DNA from: a virus
Length of the DNA: 64,000 bases
IMG/VR virus record: IMGVR_UViG_3300017917_003607
Location: 1 to 64,000 of that record
Direction: 5' to 3' (one strand)
Program-made: the position numbers and the translations under genes
Shown: positions 53,752 to 64,000 of the stretch, piece after piece
Numbering within the stretch: position 1 is the stretch's first letter
Layout of the letters: each line of letters starts with the position of its first letter
Notes under the pieces: model-generated
What the model was told of the DNA's origin: nothing
Seen by the model: the letters and a program-made list of their open reading frames with translations, nothing else
Database searches by the model: none

Positions 53752-55521
53752 ATGTCAGATAATTCACCAATAGAATTAGTTTCACTTGTTGAACAAAAAG
53801 CTCTGAATGTTTTAGAGAACTATAACGGTGCAAATAACTATATACTGAAACTTAAAAATATATACGGACCTAATAAAAAAGGTATTCCAACGAGAAGTCA
53901 ATCTGATTATATTATAACCTATCAAAATACAGTTCCAAAAATAGCTCGTAAGTGGGTAGAATTAGATAGTTATTTTTCTGAAAAAATCGCAAACGAAAAA
54001 TTATACACCGAACCCCCAAAACAAGTTTGGGTAGAAAAGTTATTAGTTGAAAAAGACAAATCATATCATGTGTGGGGTAAATTCCTCGAGAGTGAACAAC
54101 TATCAGAATTTTGGATTCCAAAAGTTGCGATTATTAAAAACCCCGAACAATACTATAAAGAAATAGATTTTTCAAAGTATTCACATAGACCATTATTATC
54201 ACATCAAATAGAAGCGGTAAACAAACTTGTAAGAACAAAAAGATTTATATTAGCGGATGATATGGGATTGGGAAAAACTACATCAACTGTGGTTGCTGCG
54301 TTAGAAACCGAAGCCAAAAAAGTTTTGGTAATTTGTCCTGCATCGTTAAAGATAAATTGGCAAAGAGAAATACAAAACTATACAGATAGACCAACTTTTA
54401 TTTGTGATGGAAAAAAATATGAAGATACTGATTTTGTAATAATTAACTATGATATCATTAAAAATTTTCATGACCCCGAAAATGAAAAAGAATCTTTAAT
54501 ATTAAAAAGTAAATTTGATTTAATAATAATTGATGAGGCACATTACATACAGAATAAATCAGCACAAAGAACAAAATTAATCAATAGTTTTGTTAAAGAT
54601 GTTGATAGATTGTGGTTACTAACAGGTACACCAATGACCTCAAGACCCATGAATTATTATAATCTTTTAAATCTTGTTGAATCACCCGTGGCGGCAAATT
54701 GGATGGCTTACGTTAGAAGATATTGTAATGGATACCAATTCAAAGTCGGAAATAGAAAAATATGGAACGTCACGGGCGCATCAAATTTAGAAGAACTAAG
54801 AGACAGAACATCAAAACAAGTTTTACGTAGATTAAAAACTGAAGTGTTAGACTTACCTGATAAGATTATAACACCTGTATATTTGAGATTAAAATCAAAA
54901 GAATATGAAAATTTAATGGGTGAATATTATGATTGGTATGATAAAAATCCCGATGAAAGTACATCACTAACCGTCCAATTTACAAAACTTACAAAAATAA
55001 GACAGGTAATCGCAAGTGAAAAAATAAACTCAACAATAGAATTAATTGAAAACATTTTAGAACAAGATAAAAAAGTAATAGTTTTTACAAACTTTACAGA
55101 GACATTACACACAATACATTCACACTTTGGAAAAAAATCGGTTTATCTTGATGGTTCTTGTAGTCCAAAACAAAGACAGGACGCGGTAGACAATTTTCAA
55201 AACAATGAAGAAATTAGAGTGTTTGTCGGAAACCTGAAAGCCGCGGGTGTTGGTATTACACTAACCGCGGCTGAGGCTGTTATTATGAATGACTTATCAT
55301 TTGTACCATCAGACCATTCACAAGCTGAAGACAGAAGTTATAGATACGGACAGAAATCAAATGTTTCTGTTTATTATCCAATATTTGAAAATACAATCGA
55401 AGGAGTTATATACGATATACTAAATCATAAGAAAAATATTTTTGAGACTGTAATGGGTGATAATCAATCAAGAGCGGATGTTGTACAAGAAATAATGAGT
55501 CGAATTAATGAACGAATGTAA
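53752..55521 (+). CDS. SNF2-type DNA helicase/translocase (UvsW-like role)
   Basis: 589 residues. An N-terminal region (~1-130) is a small non-helicase domain. Residues ~140-590 carry the SF2/SNF2 core: LLSHQIEAVNKLV (Q-motif-like, ~148), Walker A ADDMGLGKTT (168-177), CPASLKINWQ (Ia), DEAH (261-264), LTGTPM (III), then ITLTAAEAVIMNDLSFVPSD and QAEDRSYRYGQ (motifs V/VI). The layout recalls SMARCAL1/HARP-type annealing helicases, which rewind forks; T4 UvsW performs branch migration. It starts the plus-strand block with TAAGGA 5 nt before the ATG. No nuclease domain. Confidence 0.85.
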   Translation: MSDNSPIELVSLVEQKALNVLENYNGANNYILKLKNIYGPNKKGIPTRSQSDYIITYQNTVPKIARKWVELDSYFSEKIANEKLYTEPPKQVWVEKLLVEKDKSYHVWGKFLESEQLSEFWIPKVAIIKNPEQYYKEIDFSKYSHRPLLSHQIEAVNKLVRTKRFILADDMGLGKTTSTVVAALETEAKKVLVICPASLKINWQREIQNYTDRPTFICDGKKYEDTDFVIINYDIIKNFHDPENEKESLILKSKFDLIIIDEAHYIQNKSAQRTKLINSFVKDVDRLWLLTGTPMTSRPMNYYNLLNLVESPVAANWMAYVRRYCNGYQFKVGNRKIWNVTGASNLEELRDRTSKQVLRRLKTEVLDLPDKIITPVYLRLKSKEYENLMGEYYDWYDKNPDESTSLTVQFTKLTKIRQVIASEKINSTIELIENILEQDKKVIVFTNFTETLHTIHSHFGKKSVYLDGSCSPKQRQDAVDNFQNNEEIRVFVGNLKAAGVGITLTAAEAVIMNDLSFVPSDHSQAEDRSYRYGQKSNVSVYYPIFENTIEGVIYDILNHKKNIFETVMGDNQSRADVVQEIMSRINERM

Positions 55522-55562: not shown

Positions 55563-57125
55563 ATGAAATTGAAAAAGTTAGAATCCGAAATTGAAGAACT
55601 ACAAAGTATAATCGAAGGTACCGAAAACACACAAGAAATACTTCAAGAGCAACAAAAAGAAATTATTAACGAAATGAAGAAAATAGGTATTGAAAAATTA
55701 CCTTACTCTTATTCTTCACTCCAACGATTCATTGACCCAAAAACAATGAATATCCACTATAACAAACATTACAAAGGATATGTGGATAAACTAAACAAAG
55801 CATTAGAAAAACAAAAAGACAACGATTTAGACCTCGAAGAGATAGTTAAAGGTATTTCTCGTTTTAGTAAAACCGTTAGAAATAATGCTGGTGGGGCTTT
55901 TAACCACGCATTGTTTTGGAAAATGTTAACACCAAAAAAACAAAAGATTAAAGGTGAAATTTTAGAAAAAATCATTAAAGATTTTGGTTCATACGAAGAA
56001 TTTAAAAAACAGTTCATTGAAAAATCAAAATTAAATTTTGGTTCAGGTTGGTGTTGGTTGGTTATTACAAAAACAGGTAAATTAAAAATTGTAACCACGC
56101 CAAATCAAGACAATCCATTAATGAATGTTATTAAAGATGGCGGATACCCACTTTTGGGGTTAGACCTTTGGGAACACGCATATTATCTTAGATATCAAAA
56201 CAAAAAAGATGAATATATTGAAAAGTTTTTTTTAGTTGTTAATTGGGAATTTGTAAATTCTCTATATACGGCAAAAACCGAGAAGAAATTAAATGAAGAA
56301 AAATTAGTATCACAAATTTTAACAGAAGAACAAAGAAGTATGGGATGTAATTCATCACAAGTGAAACAAATTAACAGATTGTTTTCAACAAACCCACAAG
56401 TAAAATACAAGTTTATGAACACCATTAACACAATATTAAAAAGTGTTTATGCCGAATATTGGAAAGAAAAAGACGAATATGAACCAGGTTCTATGTCAGG
56501 AATATATGATTTTGGTACCAAAGGACGTTCAGTTTTAAATAAACTAAACACAAACTACAGTTCATTTTGTATTTTAATGAACGACCTCAATATTTTTTTA
56601 ATTTCAAAAGAAAAACAACCAATTATGTTCTCTATGAACAATAAAGAACAACAACTACAAGAGGTTGAAAGATTTTGTAACTATTTGGAGTTACTCAAAG
56701 ATAGAATTTTTAATTTGTCTACATCGAAAACATTCCAAGAAATTTTCAAAAAATTAAAAGAGACTGACCAAAGAGGTGAAAAAAGAGAAGACGATACGGT
56801 AATACAACTTAAAAAAATATTCAAAACCGATAAAGTTGAAAAAATTGGTGGTCTTGGGAATGAAGAAGATATGATTTCAGGTGTAGACGCAATTATTGAT
56901 GTTAATGGTGAAAGGAAAACCGCACAAATTAAACCATTTAGTTACACTAAAGACATCTCAGATAATGAAGTTATGGTATTTGGTGCTAGTGCACCTAAAA
57001 AATACAAAACCGATTTTATTGTTTTTAATAACCCAAGTAGAACTTTGGTTTTTAAAAATCAAGGAACAAAAATATTAGACGGAAATTACGTTTTTCCAAA
57101 AGAAAGCGAAATTAAATCTGTTTAA
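55563..57125 (+). CDS. Mn/Fe superoxide dismutase domain with coiled-coil N-terminus and nuclease-like C-terminal domain
   Basis: 520 residues, more than twice the size of a normal SOD (~200). Residues 1-43 form a Glu/Lys coiled coil. Residues ~45-235 match SodA from end to end: H65 and Y73 in NIHYNKHYKGYV, H115 in GGAFNHALFW, D201 and H205 in LDLWEHAYYL, with the NQDNPLM loop (Q182), which favours the Mn type; all four metal ligands are intact. Residues ~240-400 are helical. Residues ~405-500 look like a PD-(D/E)XK-type fold: ISGVDAIID (D442), then TAQIK (Q455, K457). SOD converts superoxide to peroxide and oxygen; the nuclease-like part is inferred from pattern only and may be inactive (Gln replaces Glu). 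It lies between the helicase and gp13-like genes; a plain SOD or a virion protein are alternatives. Confidence 0.7.
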   Translation: MKLKKLESEIEELQSIIEGTENTQEILQEQQKEIINEMKKIGIEKLPYSYSSLQRFIDPKTMNIHYNKHYKGYVDKLNKALEKQKDNDLDLEEIVKGISRFSKTVRNNAGGAFNHALFWKMLTPKKQKIKGEILEKIIKDFGSYEEFKKQFIEKSKLNFGSGWCWLVITKTGKLKIVTTPNQDNPLMNVIKDGGYPLLGLDLWEHAYYLRYQNKKDEYIEKFFLVVNWEFVNSLYTAKTEKKLNEEKLVSQILTEEQRSMGCNSSQVKQINRLFSTNPQVKYKFMNTINTILKSVYAEYWKEKDEYEPGSMSGIYDFGTKGRSVLNKLNTNYSSFCILMNDLNIFLISKEKQPIMFSMNNKEQQLQEVERFCNYLELLKDRIFNLSTSKTFQEIFKKLKETDQRGEKREDDTVIQLKKIFKTDKVEKIGGLGNEEDMISGVDAIIDVNGERKTAQIKPFSYTKDISDNEVMVFGASAPKKYKTDFIVFNNPSRTLVFKNQGTKILDGNYVFPKESEIKSV

Positions 57126-57137: not shown

Positions 57138-58265
57138 ATGGCAGTAATACAAGAACCCGAAAGAAGTAAATTATACAGACGTATCCGTAATCTTCTTGGT
57201 GCACCTGTTAGGGGTGTTGAATTGGAGGACGAACAAATGGATGCATTGTTAGAGTTGGCTATAGGAGACTATACTCAATATGTTTTAAATTGGTTAATTG
57301 ACGCTCAATGGACATCTCTTAATGGTTTGAATTTGGATGAGCGTTCAGTGGCAAATGCTTTGATTACTCGTAGTTTAGATTGGGAAACTCAATACACATA
57401 CGCTTATTCAAAAATAGTAGGGTTACAAGCTGGCGGACCATGGGTATTAAAAAAGGATTATTTTGATTTAGTCCCTAATCAACAATTATACGAGATACCT
57501 GCTGGTAGAGAAATCAATGAGTTGTTATGGTTTCAAAGAGCCGAATTAAATGACACGTTTTTTGACCCATTTATGGGTGGATTGTATGGGTTTGGAGGTA
57601 CTGGATTAGGAGGTCCTGCAGGATACTCACAGTTTGGTGTTGGTGGTAGTTATTTTATGATGCCAGCATTTGATGTTCTGTTGAGAATGGCGGACAGAAA
57701 TATAAAACAGAGAATCATAATTGGTGATTTAACTTATAGAATAACCGCAGCTCCTGATGGTAAAAAAATAGTTCATTTGTACAACGTACCTGGTGGGAGA
57801 TTTGATTTTTCAAACATTTCTTTTAATAAATACAGATGTTGGTATTGGTATTATGATACTACAGATGCAGATAGAGATGATTGTTTGAAAAAAAATCCAG
57901 ACATTGTTAAACTACCTTCAGATGTTCCTTTGGATGAATTAAGTTGGTCTGAATTGAATACTCCCGCACAACAATGGGTGAGACGTTGGTTTACCGCCTA
58001 TTGTAAAGAAACCTTATCACGAATTTGGGGTAAGTATCAAGGAAATATTAAAACACCCGATTCTGAACTTACTTTGGATTATGCATCATTAGCCACTGAG
58101 GCTAAAGATGAAAAATTAAAATTAATGGAGGATTTAACGGGTCCTGAAGGCACTCTCACAAGGCTCAGACCTGACAAAGTCATGGAAAGAGAGGCTTTAA
58201 TTGCTGAAAACTTAAATAAACAACTTAAGTTTAGAGCTTTTCCTGGTAATTTTTATGTAATATAA
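57138..58265 (+). CDS. Neck protein, gp13-like
   Basis: 375 residues. N-terminus with RIRNLLGAPVRGVELEDEQM and DALLELAIGDYTQYV, a pattern used in gp13/connector proteins (gene-specific loop, then an LS-DQLD-LL-LAI helix). The C-terminal WVRRWFTAYCKETLSRIWGKYQGN helix is the most diagnostic phrase for gp13-type neck proteins. A Gly-rich loop (FGGTGLGGPAGYSQFGVGG, ~150-170) is unusual. Gp13 helps seal the filled head and forms the neck ring. It overlaps the following small gene by the TAATG rule. Confidence 0.65.
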   Translation: MAVIQEPERSKLYRRIRNLLGAPVRGVELEDEQMDALLELAIGDYTQYVLNWLIDAQWTSLNGLNLDERSVANALITRSLDWETQYTYAYSKIVGLQAGGPWVLKKDYFDLVPNQQLYEIPAGREINELLWFQRAELNDTFFDPFMGGLYGFGGTGLGGPAGYSQFGVGGSYFMMPAFDVLLRMADRNIKQRIIIGDLTYRITAAPDGKKIVHLYNVPGGRFDFSNISFNKYRCWYWYYDTTDADRDDCLKKNPDIVKLPSDVPLDELSWSELNTPAQQWVRRWFTAYCKETLSRIWGKYQGNIKTPDSELTLDYASLATEAKDEKLKLMEDLTGPEGTLTRLRPDKVMEREALIAENLNKQLKFRAFPGNFYVI

Positions 58266-61817: not shown

Positions 61818-64000
61818 CTATCCAATATTTAATCTTAATGTTCCTGCGTTGGCACCACTACCCCAAGTATAGTCATATGTTCCTGTGGTTACACCTAAGG
61901 TTGATAATGTTTTTCCTGTAAAAGTTGATTGAGTTGTTAAAGTCGTATTTGAAGTGTATCCTGAAGGAACCACTAAATAATATATTAGTCCTTGTTTAAT
62001 AACACTTACTAAATCTCCGCTACCAGAATTAGCATTTGTAAGACCTGAAACACCAAAATTAGTTGGGAATGTAAGTGTTGAACCCGTGTATAAATCAACA
62101 GGTTTTGTTGAAATACCCGTTCCTGAGCTAAGTGATGCGGTATTTGGAGTTACAAAACTATTAAAATTACCAGATTGTCTATAAGTCAAATTAGTGAGAT
62201 TAAACTTACCCGTACCCGATAATATTACATCAGAACCAGATTCAAATAACCTCATTTCAAATGAAGAACCCGACACACTTGTACTACTTGGTGTTGGAGT
62301 AATTGTGTTTGTTGGTGTCACACTGGGTGTATTGGTTGGTGTATTAGTTGGTGTATCTGTAATTGTAGGGGTTATTGAAGGAGTTACAGAACTTGTTGGA
62401 GTATTAGTTGGTGTTTCAGTTGGCGTTACCGTAGGAGTTGGGGTTATCCCACCATTAATTGTTAAACTCACATAAACAGTTACTCCCGTAACCCATTCGG
62501 TTGTTGCGGATTGTATTAAAATTGCACTTCCTGAAGGTGTTCCAAGAGGTGGCACTCCAATCCCTGTTCCAAACACAAATCCAGTTCCAGGAACGCCAGG
62601 AGGTGTACCTGTATTGCCCGACCAAAACTTGAATGCGTTTGTATCTCCTGAATAAATTGCTGTACTTCCTGTTTGACTTAAAGTAATTGTAATACTTTGT
62701 CCTGTAAATCCTGAAAAATAATTAGTTCTGTCAGTATTGGTAGTATCAATTGAATTAAAGTAAAAACCGTTTCCTGTGATTGAGAATACGTTAGGGTCTG
62801 TTGTACCAGTTTGTCCACCCAATGCTTGTTCTGTCATAATTGTATTTCCTGATGATGGGAAATTATACGGAAGAACAATTAAATTATATCCATAACCCGT
62901 TACAGGTATTGGTGTTGATGTTGGTGTTGGTGTATTGGTTGGAGTTACAGTACTCGTAGGAGTTTCTGTTACAGTTGGTGTTACAGTACTTGTAGGGGTT
63001 TCTGTCACAGTTGGAGTATTAGTTGGTGTGCTGGTTGGTGTATCTGTAATTGTAGGAGTTATAGATGGTGTTATCGAACTTGTTGGAGTATTGGTTGGTG
63101 TATCTGTAATTGTAGGAGTTATAGAAGGTGTTATCGAACTTGTTGGGGTATTGGTTGGTGTGATGGTTGGGGTATTTGTAATTGTAGGAGTTATTGAAGG
63201 TGTTATAGAACTTGTTGGGGTAATTGTGGTTGTACTTGTTGGGGTATTTGTAATTGTGGGGGTTGCGGAAGGTGTTATAGAATTTGTTGGTGTATTGGTT
63301 GGTGTTGTTGACGGAGTTATTGTATTAGTTGGACTAACTGTTGGTGTGTTGGTTGGGGTTTGAGTTGGCGTCTTAGTTGGTGTTGGAGTTGGTGTTGGTG
63401 ACGGGCACATTCCCAAATCAACAATTGTTAAAGAATTAACACCGCCAGTTCTAACAATACTATTTTTCTTAGCACATAGATAAAAATCAGGATTTGGTCC
63501 TAATATATTACCACTGATTAGGTTACCATCACAATCTATATATGAATAAATTACACTACCTAATATTGAGTCGTTAATTAATTGGTATCTCTCACAACCT
63601 TGATAATTAATTGTAGACGTAACACTAGGTGTGATTGTTGGGGTTTGAGTTGGTGTTTTTGTTACCGTTGATGTGACTGTCTGAGTTAATGTTTGTGTCG
63701 GTGTTGGGGTTGGTGTTGGCGTAATCATTTGATTAACGGAAATACTAACATAAACTGTTTGACCTGTCACCCACTGTGTTGTTGCTGATTGTATCAAAAC
63801 GGCATTTCCTGAAGGTGTATTAGATGGTGGTACACCTATTCTAGTACCGAAAACAAAACCAGATTTACCTGATGTTGACCAATATTTAAATGAACTTGTG
63901 TCCCCTGAGTAAATCGCCACACTTCCACCTTGATTTAAAGTAATTGTAACACTTTGACCCGTAAAATTCGAGAAATAACTTGTTCTATCAATACCATTTA
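61818..64000 (-). CDS. Giant PTPT fibre protein with duplicated module (5' end cut by window edge)
   Basis: The frame is open from 64000 to the stop at 61818 (727 codons). A GTG at 63920 is an internal codon, because the frame and a homologous module continue upstream, so the true start is outside. A ~95-residue module (DRTSYFSNFTGQSVTITL, AIYSGDT, GFVFGT-IGVPP--TPSG, LIQSATT-WVTG-TVYVS) occurs twice, at the edge (~63724-64000) and at ~62447-62740. The two copies are separated by a Cys-containing insert (YQGCERYQLINDS) and a ~150-residue PTNTPT linker. A second linker leads to a C-terminal ~150-residue domain (SSFEMRLFESGSDVILSG to LRLNIG). Modular fibre or adhesin inferred. Confidence 0.72.
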   Translation of the reverse strand, partial: NGIDRTSYFSNFTGQSVTITLNQGGSVAIYSGDTSSFKYWSTSGKSGFVFGTRIGVPPSNTPSGNAVLIQSATTQWVTGQTVYVSISVNQMITPTPTPTPTQTLTQTVTSTVTKTPTQTPTITPSVTSTINYQGCERYQLINDSILGSVIYSYIDCDGNLISGNILGPNPDFYLCAKKNSIVRTGGVNSLTIVDLGMCPSPTPTPTPTKTPTQTPTNTPTVSPTNTITPSTTPTNTPTNSITPSATPTITNTPTSTTTITPTSSITPSITPTITNTPTITPTNTPTSSITPSITPTITDTPTNTPTSSITPSITPTITDTPTSTPTNTPTVTETPTSTVTPTVTETPTSTVTPTNTPTPTSTPIPVTGYGYNLIVLPYNFPSSGNTIMTEQALGGQTGTTDPNVFSITGNGFYFNSIDTTNTDRTNYFSGFTGQSITITLSQTGSTAIYSGDTNAFKFWSGNTGTPPGVPGTGFVFGTGIGVPPLGTPSGSAILIQSATTEWVTGVTVYVSLTINGGITPTPTVTPTETPTNTPTSSVTPSITPTITDTPTNTPTNTPSVTPTNTITPTPSSTSVSGSSFEMRLFESGSDVILSGTGKFNLTNLTYRQSGNFNSFVTPNTASLSSGTGISTKPVDLYTGSTLTFPTNFGVSGLTNANSGSGDLVSVIKQGLIYYLVVPSGYTSNTTLTTQSTFTGKTLSTLGVTTGTYDYTWGSGANAGTLRLNIG
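62908..63395 (-). repeat. Longest PTPT/PTNTPT-encoding array
   Basis: About 160 codons of Thr-Pro-rich units with a 6-18-bp period, some tandem copies nearly identical at DNA level (for example the SSITPSITPTIT unit repeated four times). It could expand or contract by slippage or recombination. Confidence 0.8.

Follow-up and report, generated by a model that had tools for sequence, protein, structure and literature searches.

A superoxide dismutase with exchangeable tails in a hypervariable slot of T4-like phages, a probable precursor of internal head proteins

In a 64,000-nucleotide stretch of a viral record (IMG/VR IMGVR_UViG_3300017917_003607, positions 1 to 64,000; here called the window), the gene at 55563..57125 on the plus strand encodes a chain of 520 residues, in which a leader, a Mn/Fe superoxide dismutase (SOD) domain and a PD-(D/E)XK-type tail follow one another. 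Our analyses showed that, in a T4-like lineage, this gene fills a hypervariable slot between an SNF2 helicase gene and a neck gene. It belongs to a modular family in which SOD is the most frequent element and the predicted nuclease is one of several interchangeable tails, and hundreds of uncultured T4-like phages carry SOD with exchangeable extra domains at this fixed genome position. We consider it probable (roughly 0.6) that the gene encodes a precursor of internal head proteins, which would be targeted to the prohead, cut and injected. The original prediction had guessed at a virion enzyme, a guess that thereby gains indirect support.

The open reading frame starts with ATG and is uninterrupted. 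Its SOD domain (residues 43-237; 55689..56273, +) is matched by Pfam Sod_Fe_N over residues 43-122 (E=6e-22) and by Sod_Fe_C over residues 130-233 (E=4e-38), and SODs of known structure in the PDB match residues 43-238 with E-values down to 4e-60 and scores of up to 207 bits. Across 22 divergent relatives there is no variation in the three His and one Asp that bind the metal in this class (H65, H115, H205 and D201), in the gate tyrosine Y73 or in Q182 of the NQD loop, so the active-site residues that had been read from the letters alone are borne out. Strict motif patterns were matched by 103 of the 139 SOD cores in a wider set; the remaining cores, read individually, also contain the metal ligands, and their mismatches are neighboring substitutions or trimmed core ends. 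The phage SOD active site hence appears intact, and dismutase activity is predicted. With its whole SOD domain, ligands and NQD loop, the protein resembles the cellular Mn/Fe SODs SodA and SodB; in contrast to these, it is flanked by a leader and a tail, is encoded in a phage slot and scores below the NCBIfam equivalog cut-offs of the bacterial enzymes. Large phages, namely the Pseudomonas phage PA5oct group and Vibrio phage 2.275.O, likewise encode Mn/Fe SODs, but their plain enzymes share 26% identity, match over the SOD part only and give no such tail match. The SOD of 'freshwater phage' MW462191 was rejected as a relative, since cell-like metabolic genes surround it and it lacks such a tail.

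Behind the SOD lies a C-terminal region of about 270 residues. It comprises a helical subdomain (about residues 263-382; 56349..56708, +) with a conserved GRSVxNxLNTNY motif, which is common to the tails of class c (see below), and a PD-(D/E)XK-like domain (about residues 389-512; 56727..57098, +) with E409, D442, Q455 and K457 as the predicted active site. These four residues and D436 are invariant in an alignment of 18 relatives of 34-92% identity (alignment A1, in which position + 249 gives the protein residue). D442, Q455 and K457 form the D-x12-Q-x-K pattern on which the original prediction had based a nuclease-like C terminus, and D-x(n)-[QE]-x-K, mostly with n = 12, is found in 84 of 85 distinct class b domains and in 12 of 12 of the related class c. 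AlphaFold 2 modeled the tail with a mean pLDDT (predicted local distance difference test score) of 86, with values below 50 in the first ten residues. In a Foldseek comparison of this model with the PDB, structures of I-Ssp6803I or archaeal Hjc made up all of the top 17 neighbors (probability up to 0.99, E-values 0.009-0.45), and in a viral structure library the names PD(D/E)XK endonuclease and Holliday junction resolvase recurred. The signature, a preceding helix that provides the invariant Glu, and the core fold of the superfamily are thus all present, and the model argues strongly for a PD-(D/E)XK fold. The tail is accordingly a predicted nuclease that may cut nucleic acids.

The tail differs from its structural neighbors in several respects. 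Q455 replaces the acidic residue of the classical PD-(D/E)XK motif, and an extra helical subdomain is present that Hjc and I-Ssp6803I do not have. Global TM-scores with these two are low, because only about half of the tail corresponds to their fold, and the PDB held no credible sequence-level match to the tail. A tail-profile search of genome contigs, made with a bacterial origin in mind, yielded no relative, nor did we find tail relatives in a phage collection or a match to any PADLOC defense family. In UniProt, A0A6J5L953 (501 residues) was matched by the tail model over 257 columns with 33% identity (E=4e-22), and its length fits the same architecture; its title, 'superoxide dismutase [uncultured Caudovirales phage]', does not mention the tail. 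A literature search found no paper describing a phage SOD fusion. The original remark that no such fusion was known therefore holds insofar as the fusion is undescribed, although a similar protein had already been deposited as a plain SOD. The tail domain also occurs inside a much longer protein of an uncultured marine phage (BFVD A0A8D9CCA0, 1113 residues; Foldseek E=1e-16).

A first viral scan found the SOD-tail fusion with the same length and architecture in more than 40 contigs, 47-93% identical and with identical synteny, which rules out an assembly error or a chance fusion. The fusion of SOD with a nuclease-like module, first read from a single gene, is thus real; it is not a one-off, however, but one member of a modular family. 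Relatives were confirmed in 125 viral contigs with the whole protein as query and in 300 with the tail profile. Loci are numbered with L; 45 were selected to span the architectures. In 44 of the 45, an SNF2 helicase gene lies upstream, and 44 also have the neck gene on the downstream side; the two exceptions are L143 and L042, whose contig ends before the neck gene. In the window, these borders are an SNF2-type helicase (53752..55521, +; Pfam SNF2-rel_dom 2e-29) and a neck or head-tail adaptor gene (57138..58265, +; phrog_211 head-tail adaptor 8e-10), a relative of which in Flavobacterium phage immuto is annotated as head completion protein. A scan with the neck protein only, which provides a view of the slot that is not selected by SOD, confirmed at least 597 contigs of the lineage.

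Between these borders, the slot contains SOD alone (about 240 residues), an N-terminal HEWxH domain with SOD (about 370), SOD with a tail (about 515-610) or all three (about 700-960). SOD-less slots hold a class b nuclease gene in L178 and L189, and in L195 and L209 with further genes besides; the slot of L210 has two class c-like genes, and small separate genes occur in some slots. Clustering of the modules gave 116 instances of classes b and c together, 42 of the HEWxH domain, 15 of class e and 9 of class d. Class b is homologous to class c (hhalign probability 96%, E=1.4e-9), and for classes d and e we found no relation to class b. A fused tail in one phage can be a separate neighboring gene in another, as seen for class c in L177 and for class e in L186, L221 and L228. 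The distribution of tail classes over a tree of 129 SOD cores requires at least 14 changes. In a few relatives the fusion gene is damaged, with frame breaks in L025 and L044 and an internal deletion in L040, due to either sequencing artefacts or decay.

The other modules are less readily assigned. The HEWxH domain of about 120 residues (HEWxH...EDEANAxAG) was found N-terminal to SOD in L054:4668-5055 and in 41 other proteins; because it had no assignment in Pfam, PHROG or the PDB, we call it zincin-like by its motif only. It might be ImmA/IrrE-like. For class e, the AlphaFold 2 model (pLDDT 81) had no meaningful PDB neighbor, and we do not claim a nuclease despite a D...E-x-K pattern; class d tails show an E...D...CK pattern by eye. 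Polymorphic toxin systems place an immunity gene beside each toxin tail. Such a pairing is not seen here, because in most loci the fusion gene is the only gene in the slot and the neck gene follows directly. Among the further slot genes, those at L195:687-1416 and L209:3297-3981 resemble HNH-type endonucleases by eye (CxxC pairs, HIDHIIPLS...NLQPL motifs), and they lie beside a small gene resembling a ribbon-helix-helix protein. Tandem genes of about 105-120 residues at L211:5194-5878, L224:4908-5914 and L235:5597-5912 start with MKIIITESS and have a W-L-N-K-x-F-G-D-L-T-P domain in common, which also occurs fused behind SOD.

What all tailed forms have in common is the joint. The linker after the SOD is variable, with one outstanding motif, [L/I/V]-x-E, for which S, E or T is the usual next residue. 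It is present in 106 of 106 tailed proteins from four tail classes, with an invariant E and always L, I or V at P3, and conservation in the flanking columns is only 42%. The neighboring SNF2, neck and polymerase proteins served as controls; the conserved LxE motifs in these sit in surroundings of 57-88% conservation, and two further neighbor proteins had no conserved LxE motif. Counting distinct linkers, the motif occurs in 89/89 and a second one in 86/89, compared with 36% of random 20-residue windows. It is absent from 13 of 19 tail-less or short-tailed forms, and most tail-less SODs end before it. In the window's protein, the two joint motifs are L243-N244-E245 (56289..56297, +) and L253-T254-E255 (56319..56327, +), the latter disordered in the model and with its E invariant in alignment A1. 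The N-terminal border of the SOD is marked in the same way, by [LIVMF]xE in 104/104 distinct proteins and by I35-N36-E37 at the end of the window's leader (residues 1-37; 55563..55673, +), where E37 is nearly invariant. L211 has further repeat modules within the chain, again preceded by INES. The loci L075 and L056 are 90-100% identical in DNA through the HEWxH domain and the SOD; this similarity breaks off where LKE is encoded and resumes at the neck gene, and the tails in between, of classes c and e, are unrelated to each other. In at least this phage pair, the tail has been exchanged exactly at the [L/I/V]-x-E motif, as read from the aligned sequences.

The joint motif matches the site at which the T4 prohead protease gp21 cuts head and internal proteins, namely after L/I-X-E (PMC9026906). 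The 111,691-bp record of which the window is a part contains a T4-type head module at record positions 95979-103926, with a gp23 capsid protein (Pfam Gp23 4e-71), a gp21-type protease (Peptidase_S77 3e-21) and a gp20 portal; the phage origin first proposed is supported. The joint also matches the capsid propeptide of the lineage (LINE↓A, the arrow marking the presumed cut): INE↓A or INE↓S is found in 76/76 extracted sequences at the site corresponding to the gp23 propeptide border. A neighboring scaffold candidate contains LVKES, TIKES and VVKES. Separate slot genes often begin with short leaders of the same kind (MKIIITE↓SS, MKYIFTE↓SQ, MKKTIRLTE↓SD); short LxE↓S leaders are found in 17 of 31 such genes and in 12 of 95 genes from elsewhere in the record (Fisher p=6e-6, with sequences that are not independent). 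By eye, the leaders of SOD-less nuclease genes resemble those of the SOD genes (for example, MKNTENKVNLIIEEI in L189 and MKSLEEKAKLLTEDI in L186). Small Cys-containing slot genes at L197:3499-4268 and in L198, L199, L200 and L205 start with MKKTIRLTESDLxRxxRRVI+E, possibly a packaging leader.

Because the linker resembles a site that the phage's own prohead protease would cut, head packaging and injection are suggested, and cutting at the conserved border motifs appears probable. We may picture the course of events as follows. The leader would direct the protein to the prohead core, where the gp21-type protease would cut at INE37↓M and at LNE245↓E and/or LTE255↓E, yielding a mature SOD (about residues 38-245) and a mature nuclease (about 256-520). 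Joined by a conserved protease-like site, the two may act as separate proteins and not as one joined enzyme. Both would be packed with the DNA and then injected; in the cell, the SOD might remove superoxide before it harms the entering DNA or the early proteins of the phage, and targets of the nuclease might be a defense system or the DNA of the host or of a competitor. For the family as a whole, we see about an even chance that it represents head-packaged polyproteins of SOD and interchangeable effectors (nucleases, the HEWxH metallo-domain and unknown domains), which are cut apart in the prohead by the gp21-type protease and whose cleavage-site codons double as the recombination joint for module swaps.

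Packaging, processing and the enzyme activities are what we infer, and several points weigh against this interpretation. L/I-x-E is short and common by chance, and the sequences compared are related. The SOD domain itself contains many such motifs, which folding would have to shield. An N-terminal leader is not obvious in the HEWxH-containing forms, the leader comparison took in few and related genes, and we make no claim that the leader resembles the T4 capsid-targeting sequence. The protein could instead be an ordinary intracellular enzyme, neither cut nor packaged, whose SOD protects the infected cell, whose nuclease degrades host DNA or aids recombination, and whose linker is kept for structural reasons. 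SOD is a plain accessory gene in other large phages, the gene lies directly 3' of the helicase gene on the same strand, and packaging is a prediction from sequence. We nevertheless regard this explanation as rather unlikely, since the linker varies and is disordered and only its prohead-protease motif is strictly conserved; this motif accompanies tails that are unrelated to one another and is usually missing without a tail; moreover, tails also exist as separate genes that bear the same kind of motif at their N terminus.

Less probable still is a selfish origin of the tail nuclease, in which a homing-type element inserted itself in frame behind the SOD and the slot is no more than a frequent insertion site. 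The homing endonuclease I-Ssp6803I is the best structural neighbor of the tail, tail presence differs among close relatives such as L076 and L060, and the slots of L195 and L209 contain the HNH-type genes. However, no relation of classes d and e to class b was found and class e has no nuclease match, yet both use the same joint, and the N-terminal HEWxH domain is likewise variable. The class b tail is also kept with its conserved residues in about 300 contigs and has a conserved helical subdomain. That the SOD fold serves structurally in the neck or head, with the tail as an adaptor and neither being enzymatic in the phage, would suit its constant place beside the neck gene and its presence in most members, but is very improbable given that all metal ligands, NQD and the nuclease active-site pattern are retained and that the lineage includes phages without SOD (L178, L189, L195, L209, L210).

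If the gene encodes a precursor of internal head proteins, the SOD-tail protein would work like those of T4, as a putative member of that class. T-even internal proteins are injected and diverse, have only a targeting sequence in common and are active against restriction enzymes (PMC3012670, PMC12373910). As with IPI, IPII, IPIII and Alt, the phage is T4-like with a gp21-type protease, and [L/I]-x-E stands near the start of the mature part (PMC3012670, PMC12373910, PMC9026906); diverse proteins, plausibly injected effectors, are swapped at a fixed position. The lineage shows several features that go with T4-type internal proteins: a gp21-type protease and a gp23 with a fitting motif, L/I-x-E at domain borders, and a polymorphic fixed position. 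The exchange of tails might then reflect an arms race, as for the T4 proteins. In contrast to these, the SOD family consists of multi-domain chains with sites also between the domains and with tails that include a predicted nuclease, resides at another genome position (the helicase/neck slot) and is a predicted part of the virion. Should this interpretation hold, injected phage proteins would include enzymes built of swappable parts and not just small inhibitors, and aquatic phages would carry SOD into the cell along with their DNA, which would make superoxide a real obstacle at infection. The slot, present in at least 597 contigs, is a place to mine new phage effectors, and LxE-bounded joints offer a simple and testable mark by which to recognize packaged cargo in uncultured T4-like phages.

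The T4 late-promoter motif TATAAATA was uninformative, being scattered through AT-rich sequence and lying on the other strand near the gene. On the minus strand of the window, 61818-63920 encodes long PTPTPT/TPTSTITPS repeats, probably in a tail-fiber or adhesin-like protein. Outside the window, at record positions 73399-87590, lies a block of genes whose start sequences by eye resemble glycosyltransferases and sugar or methyltransferase enzymes.
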